From: a virus
Reading direction: 5' to 3' (one strand)
IMG/VR virus record: IMGVR_UViG_3300031598_000007
Span: 1 to 43,175 of that record
DNA: 43,175 nucleotides
Shown: one piece after another, positions 14,450-21,713 of the stretch
Position numbering within the stretch: position 1 is the stretch's first letter
Layout: the number at the start of each line of letters is the position of its first letter
Notes under the pieces: model-generated
What the model saw: the letters and a program-made list of their open reading frames with translations, nothing else
What the model was told of the DNA's origin: nothing
Databases searched by the model: none
Made by a program: the position numbers and the translations under genes

Positions 14450-15112
14450 TTACTTCTTACCACGCCCTTGTGTACCTGACACAGATGCACCACAGTTAGC
14501 GTAACCACCTTTGTTGTAGCTCTTACCATATGGCATCTTTGCTTTCATGGGTGATCCACCTTTACTAAAGTCCATTGCGGGAGGAAGTGTCACTGGCTTA
14601 GCTCTTTTGTTTGATCTACCCTGCTCCATAGCACGTCCAACTTTGGACAACTCTGCAGCGTCAATGCGGTCAATGATAGTTTCGTATGTAGATTTATCTA
14701 TATCGCCAGCGTCATAAGCCTTCTTAGCTTCCCTACCCAAAGCGACACGCTTGGAAGTTGGTAGAGATCGGTACACAGCCAGAGACAAAGGTTTAAGGCC
14801 GGGTTTAGTAAGCATGGCTGAAGTGTTACCTACTGCTGCCTTACCACGCTCTATATCATCTTGTGGTTTTTTATCATCAAGTTTTTTAGTAACCTTATCA
14901 TCCAGTACAACTTTACGTGGTTCTGTATTAATAGTACCGCCCATGGATTGTTCTTTTTGTTTAACCCTAGCTAACTTCCTAGCCTCCGCTTGTGCTTTCT
15001 CTAAAAGTTTTCTTTCCTTTGCGGCTAGTAGGGCATCTATCTTTTTTTTCCTTCTTGAAGATGTCGGAACTTCACCGCCTAAAAATTTACGTAACTCTTT
15101 TGCTTTACCCAT
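14450..15112 (-). CDS. Lysine-rich hypothetical protein
   Basis: 220 residues, starting after AGGAGAATTATT, the same leader as the capsid gene. The N-terminal 75 residues are extremely basic and helical (SRRKKKIDALLAAKERKLLE). The middle contains PLSLAVYRSLPTSKRVALGR and DKSTYETIIDRIDAAELSKV. The C-terminus is Gly/Lys-rich (GGSPMKAKMPYGKSYNKGGY). It may be a DNA-associated virion or assembly protein. Family not recognised. Confidence 0.7.
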   Translation of the reverse strand: MGKAKELRKFLGGEVPTSSRRKKKIDALLAAKERKLLEKAQAEARKLARVKQKEQSMGGTINTEPRKVVLDDKVTKKLDDKKPQDDIERGKAAVGNTSAMLTKPGLKPLSLAVYRSLPTSKRVALGREAKKAYDAGDIDKSTYETIIDRIDAAELSKVGRAMEQGRSNKRAKPVTLPPAMDFSKGGSPMKAKMPYGKSYNKGGYANCGASVSGTQGRGKK

Positions 15113-16217: not shown

Positions 16218-16274
16218 AAAGAAGATGTCGAGCATAGAATAGTACACCCCCCTATTTCATTACATGAAATCAAA

Positions 16275-16377
16275 CTACGTCATCATCATCACATTACGTC
16301 ATCATGTTACATCATCATCATCATCACATTACGTCATCATCATCATGTTACATCATCATCATCATCACATTACGTCA
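16275..16377. repeat. CAT-rich iteron-like array
   Basis: Runs of (CAT)n alternate with two fixed words, ACATTACGTCA and GTTACATCA. The full unit is about 41 bases (16309-16349), with a shortened unit before it (16277-16308) and a partial one after (16350-16376). TACGTCA occurs at each unit. The array sits about 60 bases upstream of the rightward promoter. It resembles origin iterons or a cluster of activator sites. Confidence 0.8.
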
Positions 16378-16432: not shown

Positions 16433-16448
16433 AGTCCAACATTGGACT
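16433..16448. repeat. Palindrome copy 1 (AGTCCAACATTGGACT)
   Basis: The only variant copy: one central base differs from the perfect palindrome AGTCCAACGTTGGACT. It abuts the promoter cassette at 16450, so a protein bound here could touch RNA polymerase. Confidence 0.85.
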
Positions 16449-16449
16449 A

Positions 16450-16504
16450 CCTACTACTACGTAGTAAAATAGTGCTTGACCCCATCAAATTTTTCTGATC
16501 TAAG
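16450..16504 (+). promoter_or_regulatory. Early rightward promoter, cassette copy 1
   Basis: Bases 16450-16480 are identical to 18488-18518. The cassette contains the palindrome TACTACGTAGTA (16455-16466) and ends in the -35 box TTGAC (16476). After a 17-base spacer comes a weak -10 (TCTAAG, 16499-16504) preceded by TGA. TGATCT and GCATCGAAA are shared at nearly the same offset in copy 2. A weak -10 plus an upstream palindrome suggests activator dependence. Confidence 0.75.
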
Positions 16505-16559
16505 TTATGGCATCGAAACGGCAATCATGCTTCTCGAAATTCATTTTAGGAAAACTCTT

Positions 16560-17168
16560 ATGACAAATTCAGCAAACACAGATACAAACACAGCGGTTCT
16601 TAACACTCTTGAATTGATCGGAGCTGACATAGCACGACAATGGAAGTCTATAACCAAAGGTCAAGTATCTCGTTTCAATCAGTACACTAAGGCTGATGGC
16701 TTTGATATGAAACTTGGTAACCTTATGGTTACTCTTTCAGAGGAAGGTTCAGGACGTATCAAGTCAAGTAGACTTGTAGAATGTGGCATCAACATAGTTG
16801 ATAAGAGACGACGAGCTGAGGCTATGTGGTTCGTTAATAACGAAGTTGATTGCAGGGAATTCATTGCTAAAAGCAAAAGAGGTTACACATCACTTACATC
16901 ATTGCAACTTGCAATGTCAAAGGTTGACAATGATTCTGCACCAAACCCAGACAAGCCAGAGGCTTCAGGAAAGCTTGAGCCAGCTCACAACTTTATTGAT
17001 GCAACACCAGAAACTAGCGAAGCTAAAGTTTACACAAAAGAGACAATCTTTAGAGACTTGATTGCAATCTGTAAAGAAAGTGATGTAGACATTATGGATA
17101 TAGCAGAAATGCTTCTAAGAGAAGCTGATGCGATTGAGGTAGATACTCCTGATGCTATAGCGGCATAA
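16560..17168 (+). CDS. First rightward early protein, unknown function
   Basis: 202 residues from the ATG at 16560. An in-frame start farther upstream would lie inside the promoter, so this start is preferred; TAGGAAAA lies upstream. Sequence: MTNSANTDTNTAVLNTLELI, then SRLVECGINIVDKRRRAEAM and a Pro/Ala/Ser linker, then an acidic helical end (ESDVDIMDIAEMLLREADAI). No family recognised. As the first gene after the control region it could be a regulator or host takeover protein, but no clear helix-turn-helix is visible. Confidence 0.75.
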   Translation: MTNSANTDTNTAVLNTLELIGADIARQWKSITKGQVSRFNQYTKADGFDMKLGNLMVTLSEEGSGRIKSSRLVECGINIVDKRRRAEAMWFVNNEVDCREFIAKSKRGYTSLTSLQLAMSKVDNDSAPNPDKPEASGKLEPAHNFIDATPETSEAKVYTKETIFRDLIAICKESDVDIMDIAEMLLREADAIEVDTPDAIAA

Positions 17169-17173
17169 CATAA

Positions 17174-17230
17174 GTAACCTTATAGGTTACATTAGGCTTA
17201 CTCCCTAGCTTAGTGTAACTTTATAAGTTA
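17174..17230. repeat. Two related hairpins with a TTATA loop
   Basis: GTAACC-TTATA-GGTTAC (17174-17190) and TAACT-TTATA-AGTTA (17216-17230). Sequences after each are also related (ATTAGGCTTACTCCC versus CTTAG, palindrome, TTACTTCC). The first looks like a degenerate copy of the second module that lacks the 16-bp palindrome. Confidence 0.65.
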
Positions 17231-17234
17231 ACTT

Positions 17235-17250
17235 AGTCCAACGTTGGACT
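17235..17250. repeat. Palindrome copy 2 with RBS cassette
   Basis: Perfect AGTCCAACGTTGGACT followed by TACTTCCTGAAAGGAAA and an ATG at 17274. TTCC and GGAA in that leader can pair across TGAAA and would cover the Shine-Dalgarno. The same cassette precedes the next two genes. Confidence 0.9.
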
Positions 17251-17273
17251 TACTTCCTGAAAGGAAAAATAAA

Positions 17274-17444
17274 ATGCATAAGGTTTTAAATAAATTTATG
17301 ATTGATCCAACAGAAAAAAATGCTGTAAGATTAATATCTTATATTAATAAGCATCCATTCTCAATGTTAACGGCTTCTACTTATGTCAATGAGATTATCG
17401 GACAAGCCAGAGAAATTGCAGGTTGGAGAATCTACAAAGCTTAA
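17274..17444 (+). CDS. Small early protein, unknown function
   Basis: 56 residues: MHKVLNKFMIDPTEKNAVRL, ISYINKHPFSMLTASTYVNE, IIGQAREIAGWRIYKA. The ATG at 17274 follows GAAAGGAAAAATAAA. An upstream TTG lies inside the palindrome and is unlikely. Helical, basic. One of three consecutive tiny genes with identical 36-bp leaders. Confidence 0.7.
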   Translation: MHKVLNKFMIDPTEKNAVRLISYINKHPFSMLTASTYVNEIIGQAREIAGWRIYKA

Positions 17445-17467
17445 ATGAAATAAATGATTTAACAACT

Positions 17468-17483
17468 AGTCCAACGTTGGACT
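17468..17483. repeat. Palindrome copy 3 with RBS cassette
   Basis: Perfect AGTCCAACGTTGGACT followed by TACTTCCTGAAAGGAAA and an ATG at 17505. Leader identical to copy 2 up to the start codon region. Confidence 0.9.
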
Positions 17484-17504
17484 TACTTCCTGAAAGGAAA
17501 AACA

Positions 17505-17696
17505 ATGCTAATCGAACGTACTTCAAGACTATCAGGTGATGTACATGTCATGGATATTGATGTGTTACCTATACAAATAACGTTGTGGGAACAGGGTGAA
17601 CTTGTTCAAAATGCTATGCCTGAGCTATCTGCAGATGAACGTGAGTTTATCATGACTGGTATAACTCCCACAGAGTGGGATGAATTTTTTAACTAG
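17505..17696 (+). CDS. Small acidic early protein, unknown function
   Basis: 63 residues: MLIERTSRLSGDVHVMDIDV, LPIQITLWEQGELVQNAMPE, LSADEREFIMTGITPTEWDE-FFN. Predicted beta strands then an acidic helix. The phrase 'LSADEREFIMTGITPTEWDEFF' resembles small proteins in marine phages and plasmids that I recognise only as hypothetical. Its stop overlaps the next palindrome by two bases. Confidence 0.75.
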   Translation: MLIERTSRLSGDVHVMDIDVLPIQITLWEQGELVQNAMPELSADEREFIMTGITPTEWDEFFN

Positions 17697-17710
17697 TCCA
17701 ACGTTGGACT
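17695..17710. repeat. Palindrome copy 4 with RBS cassette
   Basis: Perfect AGTCCAACGTTGGACT, starting in the stop codon of the preceding gene, followed by TACTTCCTGAAAGGAAA and an ATG at 17733. Confidence 0.9.
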
Positions 17711-17732
17711 TACTTCCTGAAAGGAAATTATT

Positions 17733-17852
17733 ATGTCACGAATTAAATCTGAAACGAAACGTGCGGAGCTATGGAAAGTAATAGCTTTGGTTCAACAAGC
17801 TATCTTTGGTTTACTCATTGGTATTGCCATTGGCTATGGCTTGTTCATATGA
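17733..17852 (+). CDS. Tiny single-TM protein
   Basis: 39 residues: MSRIKSETKRAELWKVIALV then QQAIFGLLIGIAIGYGLFI. A basic N-terminus precedes one hydrophobic helix with GxxxG-like spacing. Good leader (AAGGAAATTATT). Overlaps the next gene by ATGA. Likely an inner-membrane peptide; role unknown. Confidence 0.65.
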   Translation: MSRIKSETKRAELWKVIALVQQAIFGLLIGIAIGYGLFI

Positions 17853-18043
17853 AGTATACAACACACACTACCAAGGCACATGTAATGCCTAAGCCTAGCC
17901 GTGTGGATCGTATTCAAAGATTACAGGCACGTCTTAAGTTACAGCGTGAATGTCTGTCACCTGTTGTTGATGTGTCATATGACAAGCGAAATAACGTAGT
18001 TGAATTTACTTCCGATACAGGTTGGAAAACCTACAAAACTTAA
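17849..18043 (+). CDS. Small basic protein, unknown function
   Basis: 64 residues from the ATG at 17849, which overlaps the previous stop (ATGA): MKYTTHTTKAHVMPKPSRVD, RIQRLQARLKLQRECLSPVV, then DVSYDKRNNVVEFTSDTGWK. The coupling decides the start. Basic helix followed by a beta hairpin. No family recognised. Confidence 0.65.
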   Translation: MKYTTHTTKAHVMPKPSRVDRIQRLQARLKLQRECLSPVVDVSYDKRNNVVEFTSDTGWKTYKT

Positions 18044-18067
18044 CACTAACAATAGGAAAATAAACAA

Positions 18068-18313
18068 ATGTATACATACAGTTTAAAGATAACTCGAAAC
18101 GAAACATGGCGACCCCAAATAACAGTGCCAGAGCAAGACCGCAAAGCCTTTGCTAATATGTCAGATGATCGGGCAAATGAGTACTTAACATGGCTTGCTT
18201 ACGAAAATTCTGATTATGTTTTTGATGACTACTACCATTCATTCACGTATGAGAGTGATACAGATATTGAGGACTTTCAAATAGTAACCCAAACAGGAGA
18301 AAAACAATCATGA
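18068..18313 (+). CDS. Small acidic protein, unknown function
   Basis: 81 residues, rich in Asp, Glu and Tyr: MYTYSLKITRNETWRPQITV, MSDDRANEYLTWLAYENSDY, VFDDYYHSFTYESDTDIEDF. Beta start, then an acidic aromatic stretch. Stop overlaps the next ATG. No family recognised; acidic aromatic composition would suit a DNA mimic, which is speculation. Confidence 0.65.
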   Translation: MYTYSLKITRNETWRPQITVPEQDRKAFANMSDDRANEYLTWLAYENSDYVFDDYYHSFTYESDTDIEDFQIVTQTGEKQS

Positions 18314-18486
18314 TAGCTATATGTTATGACGAATGTGGGACTGAGGTATCAATAGAGGTTAAAAACCTAGATGAGATACCGCCTGAATATAAATTTAGAT
18401 ACTCTCAAATGCATACTGAGCGAGAGTTGGCAGAGTGGCGACTATCTATGCAAGACGATCACGATGACTATGACTATGATTATTAA
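18310..18486 (+). CDS. Tiny acidic protein, unknown function
   Basis: 58 residues: MIAICYDECGTEVSIEVKNL, DEIPPEYKFRYSQMHTEREL, AEWRLSMQDDHDDYDYDY. ATGA overlap with the previous stop. The C-terminus is almost pure Asp/Tyr. Ends just before promoter cassette 2. No family recognised. Confidence 0.6.
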   Translation: MIAICYDECGTEVSIEVKNLDEIPPEYKFRYSQMHTERELAEWRLSMQDDHDDYDYDY

Positions 18487-18487
18487 C

Positions 18488-18542
18488 CCTACTACTACGT
18501 AGTAAAATAGTGCTTGACAGCAGGTTAGTTATCTGATCTGTT
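18488..18542 (+). promoter_or_regulatory. Early rightward promoter, cassette copy 2
   Basis: Bases 18488-18518 repeat 16450-16480 exactly, including the palindrome TACTACGTAGTA (18493-18504) and TTGACA (18514-18519). Seventeen bases further is TCTGTT, preceded by TGA. TGATCT and GCATCGAAA are shared with copy 1. The 31-base identity in a non-coding gap between two unrelated genes is strong evidence for function. Confidence 0.75.
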
Positions 18543-18568
18543 GTAAGCATCGAAAGTGTTCATCGTTA

Positions 18569-18584
18569 AGTCCAACGTTGGACT
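18569..18584. repeat. Palindrome copy 5
   Basis: Perfect AGTCCAACGTTGGACT, 50 bases downstream of the second promoter's -35 box, so it probably lies just after the transcription start. It precedes a different leader (AGTGGAAAAGGAAATACACA). Confidence 0.9.
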
Positions 18585-18604
18585 AGTGGAAAAGGAAATA
18601 CACA

Positions 18605-19015
18605 ATGTCTACATATAAAGAAAACTACCTTGTATATCAATGTATGTTGAGTGCAGGACAACATAAGTATGTAAATGATAATCCTGATAGTAGTATGGCT
18701 AATGCCTACTTTGGAATTACGTCATTGTTTGGTGGTGACGCTGAGCATTTAATGATTAATGCTTTGGAATATGGTATATATAAACCTACTATGTTGATGT
18801 CTATCTATGAAGCACATAGTCGTGGCACATATGAAAAACTATGGGCAGAAGGTAACGACGAAGGTAATTTTACAGTAGAACGTAAAGACTTGCGAATGCA
18901 TCCTAGCTTGTCCGTTGGAGATGTAATAGTACGTCTCACAACTGGCGATGTCCATATCGTATTACCCGTTGGCTTTATGCAAGTTAACGTGGAACTATCA
19001 CTACAATCAATCTAA
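18605..19015 (+). CDS. Early protein, possible YodL-like C-terminus
   Basis: 136 residues. The C-terminal stretch HPSLSVGDVIVRLTTGDVHI is similar in style to the 'HSLSVGDVV' strand of YodL-type phage/plasmid proteins. The N-terminal half (MSTYKENYLVYQCMLSAGQH, AEHLMINALEYGIYKPTMLM) is helical and unfamiliar. First gene of the second early transcript. The family link is tentative. Confidence 0.65.
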   Translation: MSTYKENYLVYQCMLSAGQHKYVNDNPDSSMANAYFGITSLFGGDAEHLMINALEYGIYKPTMLMSIYEAHSRGTYEKLWAEGNDEGNFTVERKDLRMHPSLSVGDVIVRLTTGDVHIVLPVGFMQVNVELSLQSI

Positions 19016-19037
19016 TATCTTGAAAGGATATAATACT

Positions 19038-19373
19038 ATGACTAATATTTTCAAAAAGCCTCTCGTAAAAACTACTAACCCTGAGTTGTATGCAAAGCAT
19101 ACTTACCATATGTCAAAGGCTTATAAGCTGACATATAACTACTCTGTAGTAGACGATTATATTTTACAGAATTGGAACGATACCACTGTGAAACAGATGG
19201 CTGTTGATCTTAATGAGTATCCACGGCGTGTCTCTTATAGAGTAGCTGTTCTTAGGTCGGTTGGTTTAATTCGGAGTAAGCACAACTTAGAGCGTCGTAA
19301 TCTAATGAAACAGTACAGAGTACTAATGACTTGGGTTGATGCCATTAAAAATGAATTGAAAGACGTGGTGTAA
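19038..19373 (+). CDS. Probable helix-turn-helix DNA-binding protein
   Basis: 111 residues from the ATG at 19038, after GAAAGGATATAATACT. Residues about 35-75 (DDYILQNWNDTTVKQMAVDL, NEYPRRVSYRVAVLRSVGLI) read as a winged-helix/HTH: a 'TVKQMAVDLNEYPRRVSYRVAVLRSVGLI' pattern with a basic recognition helix. It is the best candidate in the early region for the protein that reads one of the repeated palindromes. That link is inference. Confidence 0.72.
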   Translation: MTNIFKKPLVKTTNPELYAKHTYHMSKAYKLTYNYSVVDDYILQNWNDTTVKQMAVDLNEYPRRVSYRVAVLRSVGLIRSKHNLERRNLMKQYRVLMTWVDAIKNELKDVV

Positions 19374-19529
19374 ATGAAAAAGAAACCTGTGGTCATAAAC
19401 CCTGTGGCAAAAGCTATGTTACAAAACAGGCAATCCCCACAGGTTGTCCCACCTAAGAAGGGTGGCAAAGCTAAACGTAATCGTAAGGAGAATAATATCA
19501 ATGCAATACGAGATGCGAAACTTTATTAA
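19374..19529 (+). CDS. Tiny basic protein, unknown function
   Basis: 51 residues: MKKKPVVINPVAKAMLQNRQ, SPQVVPPKKGGKAKRNRKEN, NINAIRDAKLY. Starts on the base after the preceding stop (TAAATG). The 'KKKPVV.NPVAKAL..NR...QVV' opening is one I know from small marine-phage proteins. Probably nucleic-acid binding; unproven. Confidence 0.65.
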   Translation: MKKKPVVINPVAKAMLQNRQSPQVVPPKKGGKAKRNRKENNINAIRDAKLY

Positions 19530-19668
19530 GTTTTCGAAGAAAGTTAAGTCCAACGTTGGACTAACGAAAAAGTATTCCGATGAATGGAAACGCAAACGTA
19601 AGATACAACGTCAAGCTAAACTAAAATTACAATTAGGAACAATCAATTATAAAAGTAAGGTAGGATAA
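19501..19668 (+). CDS. Tiny basic protein carrying a palindrome in its coding sequence
   Basis: 55 residues: MQYEMRNFIKFSKKVKSNVG, LTKKYSDEWKRKRKIQRQAK, LKLQLGTINYKSKVG. ATG at 19501 is preceded by GGAGAATAATATCA. It overlaps the previous gene by 29 bases. Palindrome copy 6 lies inside and encodes KSNVGLT. Function unknown. Confidence 0.6.
   Translation: MQYEMRNFIKFSKKVKSNVGLTKKYSDEWKRKRKIQRQAKLKLQLGTINYKSKVG
19547..19562. repeat. Palindrome copy 6, within a coding sequence
   Basis: Perfect AGTCCAACGTTGGACT read in frame as part of KSNVGLT in the 55-residue gene. There is no start codon just downstream, so its role here cannot be as an RBS leader. Confidence 0.9.
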
Positions 19669-19669
19669 C

Positions 19670-20296
19670 ATGTATGTAAGAGACGTAGCAGAAATTAAAG
19701 CATTCGTTAAGTGGCGTGGCACTGATGCCTTTGTAAACACTGGCTTGTTTGTATTACTAACAATACAAGCTGGCTTGTCTACTGTTAAGGGTAGCATGAT
19801 TAAGGTAGAATCTGATGGTGTTGATGCCAACTGTTTGTGGGGTAAGAAGGGTGATGGTTACACATATCTACAAGATAATGCTGATTACTTGTATGGCAAG
19901 ATGTATGACATAGCTGACAAGAAAGGTTATGAGAGTGTGGAAGCCTGCTCCGATGTAGTGCAACTGTTTATGCAAGTACCAAACTTGGGTATGGTCAAGG
20001 CATCTTTCCTTGCACAATGCTTAGGCTTTAACGTAGCTTGTATTGATAGTCACAATATCACACGATTGGGTTTAAATCCTAACGTAGTTAAGACACCACC
20101 TGCAACGATGAAACCTGCAACTGTTCGTAAGAAGGTTGAGGCATACGTTACATTGACACAAGAGGAGGGTACAAGATACTGGTGGGACACATGGTGTGAC
20201 TACGTAGCTGGAAACCGCGCCAATCGTGCCTTAGATACTGGTGATGTTGTATCTAGGTTTCACGTTGAGTGTATAACACATGGATTTGAAGCATGA
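19670..20296 (+). CDS. Putative helix-hairpin-helix (DNA glycosylase-like) protein
   Basis: 208 residues. Residues 103-130 (VPNLGMVKASFLAQCLGF, then NVACIDSHNITRLGL) match the plan of an HhH-GPD fold: a hairpin with a 'PxLGxxKA' turn followed by a conserved Asp (D126) in IDSHN, like the 'VDTHV' of base-excision glycosylases. The N-terminus (FVLLTIQAGLSTVKGS) and C-terminus (RYWWDTWCDYVAGNRANRAL) are unfamiliar. No Fe-S cysteines are seen at the end. DNA repair or modification is plausible; inference. Confidence 0.6.
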   Translation: MYVRDVAEIKAFVKWRGTDAFVNTGLFVLLTIQAGLSTVKGSMIKVESDGVDANCLWGKKGDGYTYLQDNADYLYGKMYDIADKKGYESVEACSDVVQLFMQVPNLGMVKASFLAQCLGFNVACIDSHNITRLGLNPNVVKTPPATMKPATVRKKVEAYVTLTQEEGTRYWWDTWCDYVAGNRANRALDTGDVVSRFHVECITHGFEA

Positions 20297-20562
20297 AAAT
20301 ATTAAGTGAACACGAGTTGTGCGATTTTATTAATGACACCTTGGGTGCATGGGTAGATGAGGAAATGAATGAGAACCCTATTGATGAGGGTAACATATCA
20401 AGGGCACAACGTTCCGCTGAGACGTGGGACAGTTTCATTGCTGACTTAGTGCTATGGATGCACGTTAAGTATGAGAGCAACCCCGATGGGATGTTTTCAA
20501 AGGCTGTTGATAAGTCCAACGTTGGACTAACAATAGAAGATTTTATATTAGGAGAAGATTAG
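20293..20562 (+). CDS. Small acidic protein carrying a palindrome
   Basis: 89 residues, MKILSEHELCDFINDTLGAW, WDSFIADLVLWMHVKYESNP, ending VGLTIEDFILGED. ATGA overlap with the previous gene. Palindrome copy 7 encodes the same KSNVGLT as in copy 6, at its C-terminus. Function unknown. Confidence 0.65.
   Translation: MKILSEHELCDFINDTLGAWVDEEMNENPIDEGNISRAQRSAETWDSFIADLVLWMHVKYESNPDGMFSKAVDKSNVGLTIEDFILGED
20513..20528. repeat. Palindrome copy 7, within a coding sequence
   Basis: Perfect AGTCCAACGTTGGACT, in frame as KSNVGLT near the end of the 89-residue gene, 36 bases upstream of the next ATG at 20564. Last copy in the window. Confidence 0.9.
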
Positions 20563-21024: not shown

Positions 21025-21100
21025 CGATGACCCATGTGATGACTGGTCACGTACACCTTTACCGAAACCAATAAAACAACAGGAGAATAACAATGACTAA
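20999..21100 (+). CDS. Very short acidic peptide gene
   Basis: 33 residues: MKHQPYYSDDDPCDDWSRTP then LPKPIKQQENNND. It overlaps the previous gene by 26 bases and the next by 8. The composition (YYSDDDPCDDW) is protein-like, and the continuous overlap chain supports translation, but at this length it could be chance. Confidence 0.4.
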   Translation: MKHQPYYSDDDPCDDWSRTPLPKPIKQQENNND

Positions 21101-21713
21101 AGCAATACATATACAAAGTATATTTCAAATGATACTAAAGTTATTAGAACAAAAAGATATGGAAATAGATGAGGCTTTTACTGAGGGTGTAGAATTTGAT
21201 GCACAAAACCATGAAGATAAACGCTTTGCGTTAGCCGAAAGGGATAGGGTGCTTATTGATAAAGGCTACACGAAAGGTTTGCGTGAAGGTATTGGGTTTG
21301 GATATGATAAAGGCTACGATATAGGGAAAATTGCGCATCAAACCAACCGCACCGCCTCTTACGATGCAGGCTGGGAAGAAGGCTGTGAAGAAGGCTATGA
21401 AGAAGGCTACGATGCAGGCTGGTGTGAAGGCTATGATAGAGGCCACGCTAATGGTGAAGAAGAGCGATTGGAATTAGCAGATGCTTTAAGTAAAGCAGAG
21501 GAAAATGACTATGAAGCAGGCTGGGAAGAAGGCTGTGAAGAAGGCCACGATGCAGGCTGTAAAGAAGGCTATGAAGAAGGTCACGATGCAGGCTGGGATG
21601 AAGGCTATGATAAAGGCCACGATAATGGGGAAGATAGAGGCTTTAATAATGCCTGTCTTGCTATATCTACCTTTGCCTTAAATAAAGCAGAGGAAAATGA
21701 CGATGAAGAATGA
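21093..21713 (+). CDS. Glycine-every-fourth-residue (GX3) repeat protein
   Basis: 206 residues, start after AGGAGAATAACA. Gly occurs at every fourth position in three runs: six (58-78), eight (93-121) and eleven (143-183), with spacers such as W-E-E, Y-D-A, H-D-K. This is the GX3 pattern of Yae1/Lto1 ('deca-GX3') and of the FliH-type GxxxG helices, which pack helix to helix or bind partners. It is strongly acidic. DNA repeats (GGCTATGAAGAAGGC-like units) indicate recent expansion. Role unknown; the next gene encodes a membrane peptide. Confidence 0.75.
   Translation: MTKAIHIQSIFQMILKLLEQKDMEIDEAFTEGVEFDAQNHEDKRFALAERDRVLIDKGYTKGLREGIGFGYDKGYDIGKIAHQTNRTASYDAGWEEGCEEGYEEGYDAGWCEGYDRGHANGEEERLELADALSKAEENDYEAGWEEGCEEGHDAGCKEGYEEGHDAGWDEGYDKGHDNGEDRGFNNACLAISTFALNKAEENDDEE

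Follow-up and report, generated by a model that had tools for sequence, protein, structure and literature searches.

An early phage protein, gp01, and a dispersed palindrome that is probably its operator in HMO-2011-type marine podoviruses

Why do three small, unrelated phage genes begin with the same leader? The question arises in a 43,175-nt stretch of viral DNA (IMG/VR record IMGVR_UViG_3300031598_000007; hereafter the window), a 43-kb genome fragment from a marine podovirus of the HMO-2011 type; the nearest named records are CRP-1, HMO-2011, and CRP-345. Phages of this type form one of the ocean's most abundant phage groups (PMC9038755, PMC6918029). A sequence-only reading of the window had proposed that each leader joins a palindrome to a Shine-Dalgarno sequence that can pair with the bases in front of it, and that the unit may be a plug-in cassette through which new small genes enter the operon under common control.

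Palindromes and leaders in the window

The three genes lie on the + strand and start where that reading had placed them, at 17274, 17505, and 17733. Gene V (17274–17444, 56 aa), the first cassette gene, is shared by the window and its near-identical relative and was found nowhere else, gene H (17505–17696, 63 aa) belongs to phrog_20898, and gene W (17733–17852, 39 aa) encodes a protein that looks membrane-like. None of the three proteins is homologous to another, so it is the leader, as proposed, and not the gene that was repeated. The described order of palindrome, TTCCT-GAA-AGGAA over the Shine-Dalgarno sequence, and ATG is exact at all three genes. Their leaders are identical across 33 bp, with the triloop hairpins at 17254–17266 (V), 17487–17499 (H), and 17714–17726 (W) on the + strand, and ACTTCCTGAAAGGAAA occurs exactly in these three leaders only (17252, 17485, and 17712). 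Both the palindrome and the TTCC-GGAA element fold as RNA, as had been suggested (–10.3 kcal/mol; z –2.1 to –2.6). The 3′ ends of genes V and B (17419–17444 and 18018–18043) have a 26-nt stretch in common, encoding AGWRIYKA and TGWKTYKT, respectively, which suggests that gene V is partly chimeric.

All three palindromes of the sequence-only reading are real, but four more had been overlooked: one before gp01, one in the leader of the gene at 18605, and those at 19547 and 20513. The resulting seven span 16433–20528 and comprise six exact copies of AGTCCAACGTTGGACT, beginning at 17235, 17468, 17695, 18569, 19547, and 20513, and one copy with a single central mismatch; matches to AGTCCAACGTTGGACT with up to 3 mismatches are expected 0.09 times by chance. 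Putative operator 1 (AGTCCAACATTGGACT, 16433–16448), the copy with 1 mismatch, is upstream of gp01. The exact 16-bp operators 2 (17235–17250) and 3 (17468–17483) are in the leaders of genes V and H, and operator 4 (17695–17710) overlaps the stop codon of gene H and precedes gene W. Operator 5 (18569–18584) is in the leader of gene X (18605–19015), here without a triloop hairpin. The remaining two are within genes: operator 6 (19547–19562) codes for SNVG in gene C (19501–19668), and operator 7 (20513–20528) for KSNVGL in the ORF at 20293–20562. A site at 14634 with 3 mismatches to AGTCCAACGTTGGACT was discarded as a probable chance match.

Palindrome sites and Shine-Dalgarno hairpins across relatives

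Loci of relatives were collected via the neighboring DUF932 gene and via the palindrome itself; single palindrome matches in unrelated contigs were dismissed as chance. Genomes carry 4–10 sites, and GTCCRAYRTYGGAC is present as many as 10 times in the region corresponding to that of the window. In near-complete relatives (51–56 kb), all exact copies fall inside a 2–5-kb early stretch around gp01, and a reversed control pattern gave zero copies. A site lies upstream of gp01 in 99 of 114 relatives, many 60–300 nt upstream. Among 303 non-redundant sites, 147 are non-coding and about half lie in ORFs, which does not bear out the claim that the palindrome is tied to a leader or a gene. Leaders account for 105 of the non-coding sites, with the start codon mostly 18–25 nt past the palindrome (median 20). 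The central steps of the sites are TG (168), CG (68), CA (52), GG (8), CC (6), and TA (1). The allowed centers CG, TG/CA, and GG/CC are closed under reverse complement, as fits a site in duplex DNA.

The pairing over the Shine-Dalgarno sequence proved real and specific to palindrome leaders. Hairpins that cover the Shine-Dalgarno sequence with a stem of at least 4 pairs and a triloop of GGA or GAA were found in 60 of 137 palindrome leaders (44%) compared to 27 of 724 other starts (4%) of the same phages, counts that are not fully independent in that sites were thinned by similarity and not by phylogeny. Shuffles gave 0.3, and phages without gp01 gave none in sets of 129 and 47 starts. Hence, the TTCC-GGAA pairing of the window is one case of a wider feature. 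The stems are very diverse (TAAAC/GTTTA, CAATAC/GTATTG, TAGAAG/CTTCTA, TTCCT/AGGAA), indicating that pairing rather than sequence is kept, and the mini-hairpin probably adds translational control. CsrA and RsmA bind GGA-loop hairpins over Shine-Dalgarno sites. Like their targets, the leaders can expose GGA at the ribosome-binding site, in the loop of a small hairpin; unlike them, they have a triloop, very variable stems, and a link to a DNA operator. A CsrA gene was found in none of 10 phage records.

Mini-inverted repeats are enriched also near sites upstream of gp01 and within gp01. In relatives L047, L051, L095, L133, and others, a mini-hairpin with a highly variable stem (CATATAC/GTATATG, CACAG/CTGTG, AACATC/GATGTT) stands a few bases after the first palindrome upstream of gp01, with no start codon near.

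Association of gp01 with the palindrome

The first early gene (16560–17168, + strand) encodes a 202-aa protein that we call gp01 after CRP-1 gp01 (QBQ72410.1) and propose, from co-occurrence, covariation, and predicted structure, as the palindrome-binding regulator. Searches of Pfam, PHROGs, NCBIfam, and PDB sequences gave no significant match to it, integrase families did not match either, and it was not found in bacterial genome representatives or in plasmids. An AlphaFold model of the monomer (mean pLDDT 79.6; 92 for the core alone) consists of an all-helical core of ~110 residues (helices 17–125) and a C-terminal helical pair, with a predicted recognition helix at 112–125 that contains T113. 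Neither whole gp01 nor its core had a clear relative in a fold search of the PDB, a null result that implies neither a new fold nor the absence of a helix-turn-helix. With a monomeric model and no clear fold match in the PDB, a known DNA-binding fold is not demonstrated for gp01.

We searched blindly for repeated near-palindromes in the surroundings of 128 distinct gp01 genes. Three or more copies were obtained at 118 loci, and at every one of these the repeat was of this class (117 GTCC-type, 1 CCCC). Fewer were found at the remaining 10 loci, 9 of which offered less than 1 kb of downstream sequence. Among cultured phages, gp01 and palindromes are both present in CRP-1, CRP-345, and HMO-2011, the last with the variant GTCCGACAGCGGAC around its gp01 homolog gp74. 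Both are absent from CRP-2, CRP-603, CRP-207, CRP-3, CRP-212, CRP-738, HTVC033P, and CRP-9, whose early regions were read and six of which have an annotated integrase. An integrase match was found in 20 of the 21 gp01 records searched besides the window, 19 of them above the family cut-off and one (G021) below it. In one 39-kb record (L038), gp01, the integrase, and the helicase are all frame-broken; the record probably contains many sequencing errors, and the gp01 and integrase breaks look like assembly errors because the helicase is broken too.

The two partners also change together. Base 5 of the palindrome (partner base 10) is A or G and tracks residue 113 of gp01: proteins with T113 go with A (95 pure, 2 mixed), and S113 is the partner of G (15 pure, 8 mixed, 3 A). 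SALQR-type S113 proteins account for most of the mixed and A cases and tolerate either base; one of the S113 proteins (L298) is accompanied by pure A. On a gp01 tree built without helix 112–125, 11 independent pairs were obtained, of which 10.5 were concordant and 0 opposed (p about 0.001, uncorrected for 162 columns). T113 ranks first of these 162 columns for fit to base 5, and the next-ranked S120, L117, M119, and K121 lie with it in the single predicted helix 112–125, a clustering in the model that we consider a stronger argument than the p value. The second-ranked column, H143, was set aside as circular, being part of the in-gene operator itself (SNVG/SDVG). In addition, where the conserved DKRRR of gp01 has become PDQRR (L194), base 1 has changed from G to C at 5 of 5 palindromes, giving CCCCAACGTTGGGG. 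In some pairs of sites, both arms have switched although 60 of 60 flanking bases are identical (e.g., L279:1407 and L023:490); thus, the palindromes change in concert and the adjoining DNA does not.

The disordered linker of gp01 contains the motif S[ND][VI]G in 107 of 128 proteins, and palindromic codons encode it in 107 of 107, three ending in GGT. TCC makes up 13% of serine codons, yet these motifs always use the palindromic codons, and in G-type sites of the linker, GTC replaces GTT where AAY becomes GAT. This codon usage indicates that it is the DNA, and not the peptide, that is kept. Restriction to gp01 phages, covariation, clustering in one helix, and retention of the in-gene DNA together argue that these dispersed operators are, most likely, sites to which gp01 binds. 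Within the integrase gene, many relatives (e.g., L109:6868 and L113:7079) conserve a related sequence, GTCCAAGGTTGGAC, that may be a site or a coincidence; it is absent from the window.

Gene turnover, alternatives, and a proposed mechanism

Among relatives, gene order around the palindromes varies. In one locus and its duplicates (L015), sequence to the left of one L038/L044 palindrome continues directly into sequence to the right of the following one, so that 601 bp including one palindrome are cleanly missing. Five more junction sequences represent ~three events of 264–304 bp with one small gene each, which brings the gene losses joined precisely at a palindrome to about four distinct ones (601, 304, 270, and 264 bp). 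The plug-in idea is thus partly borne out, in that joining at palindromes has removed or added single genes together with one palindrome. Yet a given gene need not have the palindrome: H, J, B, O, and D are found in relatives both with it and without it. The sequence-only reading had taken the occurrence of its three genes without the cassette as evidence against a plug-in device, and this is what we find for at least one of them, gene H. The window and its nearest relative (L018) differ by 443 bp and two genes, a difference not palindrome-bounded on both sides. The common control that had been proposed is strongly indicated, in that the palindrome covaries with gp01, and the element is primarily a DNA operator rather than an insertion device. 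Lambdoid phages have conserved boundary sequences between exchangeable genes. The palindromes resemble these in being short shared sequences at borders where gene content changes; unlike them, the border sequence here is a putative operator, one whose changes track a phage protein and which is retained inside genes as well.

Several other readings were weighed. If the palindrome served chiefly as a recombination joint or repeated element spreading new genes, the junctions just described and the 33-bp identity of the three leaders in the window lineage would be expected; sites in ORFs, covariation with gp01, and switched palindromes in identical flanks would be left unexplained, and genes that lack the palindrome or change without being bounded by it weigh against this reading, which we judge quite improbable. 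It is unlikely, too, that what gp01 recognizes is the hairpin formed by the palindrome in leader RNA, through which it would control translation or antitermination. The palindrome does fold beside the Shine-Dalgarno hairpin, leader sites keep a fixed distance of ~20 nt to the start codon, and transcribed sites prefer TG over CA centers on the gene strand (145 vs 25 in and after gp01, as opposed to 23 vs 27 upstream of it), a bias that may stem from a preferred orientation like that of stoperators or from C-to-T change acting more on one strand. Against RNA recognition, bases 6 and 9, which would be loop positions in RNA, are 98–99% conserved and complementary, the set of centers is closed under reverse complement, half of the sites are in ORFs, and many lie 60–300 nt upstream of gp01.

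Binding by gp01 could instead mark a site of partition, packing, or replication of the KorB/ParB type, with gene regulation secondary. The palindromes are dispersed and also lie within genes, and a KorB domain was matched very weakly (E about 0.1) in 2 of 29 gp01 members. Sites are nonetheless tied to gene leaders and the region around gp01, nearly all gp01 records searched have an integrase match (20 of 21, G021 below the cut-off), and gp01 has no fold match to ParB, making such a role improbable in our estimation. Two other proteins encoded nearby are DNA-binding candidates: a 111-aa helix-turn-helix-like protein (19038) and the tyrosine integrase, which recalls the tyrosine-recombinase-like repressor MrpR of SPbeta (PMC10516654). 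Their presence and absence across relatives led us to reject both as the binder, and we give this reading very little credence: a metagenomic relative (L081) has the integrase and the 111-aa protein and neither gp01 nor palindromes, HMO-2011 and another relative (L083) have palindromes and no detectable 111-aa homolog, and integrase phages without gp01 had no palindromes in the early regions read.

We therefore return to the palindrome as the operator of gp01, through which gp01 silences the early region; as a whole, this reading is probable. Sequence comparison documents the sites, their absence from phages without gp01, the covariation, the hairpin enrichment, and the gene losses at palindromes; binding, dimerization, repression, a role in lysogeny, and a translational effect are inferences. 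Binding of gp01 to the palindrome, well supported by comparison, is very likely. Produced from the first gene of the early operon, gp01 would most likely bind the palindrome (core GTCCRAYRTYGGAC) as a dimer whose two subunits each occupy a half-site and read base 5 of that arm through helix 112–125. Its predicted sites are upstream of gp01, inside gp01, between early genes ~20 nt before start codons, and inside early genes. At its own promoter, gp01 would repress itself; on transcribed DNA, it would act as a roadblock, much like a stoperator-bound repressor, and so set timing or lysogeny. Repression, which we favor on balance, is suggested by the sites at and in the gene for gp01, by those lying in transcribed genes, and by the resemblance to stoperators. 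That gp01 has a part in lysogeny is plausible, as all but one gp01 record searched has an integrase match; integrase phages without gp01 exist, CRP-3 among them integrates, and gp01 is thus not the general lysogeny repressor of the group. In leaders, the operator followed by the mini-hairpin over the Shine-Dalgarno sequence would probably provide the additional translational control. Because the stop-operator-hairpin-start unit is repeated, recombination between copies could swap whole small genes that would stay under gp01 control. More tentatively, the leaders may be composite cassettes, in which a DNA operator serving a regulator of a new family and a Shine-Dalgarno triloop hairpin double as a recombination joint, so that framed small genes come under dual transcriptional and translational control and remain cleanly exchangeable, with operator specificity switched genome-wide many times together with gp01, probably in escape from the immunity of related prophages.

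By analogy, the gp01 system would work most like two known ones. In L5-type (Cluster A) mycobacteriophages, a monomeric repressor with two DNA-binding domains acts at 20–30 asymmetric 13-bp stoperators (PMC9283540, PMC6550527). The putative gp01 operators share with stoperators many short sites for what is likely one phage protein, positions in promoter regions and short intergenic spaces, a motif that differs between phages and tracks the repressor, and an orientation bias with transcription, here in the center only (TG over CA). They differ in being 14–16-bp dyads in which only the central step is asymmetric, in numbering 4–10 per genome, and in being confined to the early region, often in genes or beside a Shine-Dalgarno hairpin. 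The protein matches no family searched, a null result still compatible with distant homology to the L5/TipsytheTRex repressor. The intergenic SPBRE repeats of SPbeta were known long before their binder, MrpR, which binds all copies, with 15-bp sites in promoter regions (PMC10516654). Here as there, an intergenic element is repeated and one phage repressor, putatively gp01, would serve all copies; unlike MrpR, the 202-aa gp01 is predicted to be all-helical and shows no relation by sequence or detectable fold, a null result that by itself still leaves room for a tyrosine-recombinase fold. Because the sites are dyads unlike stoperators and gp01 shows no relation to either repressor, we file the system under neither.

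On the comparative evidence, gp01 is most likely a previously undescribed phage regulator and the palindrome its docking site. In titles and abstracts of the literature naming HMO-2011 with palindromes or with a repressor and operator, a search whose range excluded most subscription papers and all preprints, we found no account of such a system, and the text of the main genome survey of HMO-2011-type phages mentions no repressor, promoter, or palindrome. These phages thereby gain a candidate master regulator, for which the recognition helix and the residue setting specificity are predicted and the operators fully listed; a single cultured phage, CRP-1, would suffice to test all of this. The 11 independent comparisons cleanly document, in natural phages, how a putative regulator and its dispersed operators shift specificity jointly, and the cassettes provide a concrete link between operators and the turnover of small early genes.

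An Rfam search gave no match, promoter-like sites in a sigma-70 scan were no commoner than in shuffles, and the base profile beside palindrome sites had no –10 signal. A 52-nt block before gp01 (16450–16501) recurs with 85% identity before gene X (18488–18539) and holds a TACTACGTAGTA palindrome and TTGACC/TTGACA; the TTGAC elements at ~16478 and ~18513 inside it are candidate early promoters. Immediately upstream of the early operon, 16264–16377 contains short tandem-like TCATCATCATCACATTACGTCA repeats, and in the gene at 21093–21713, many 12-nt repeats encode glycine- and acid-rich repeats (GYEEG, GHDAG, and similar).
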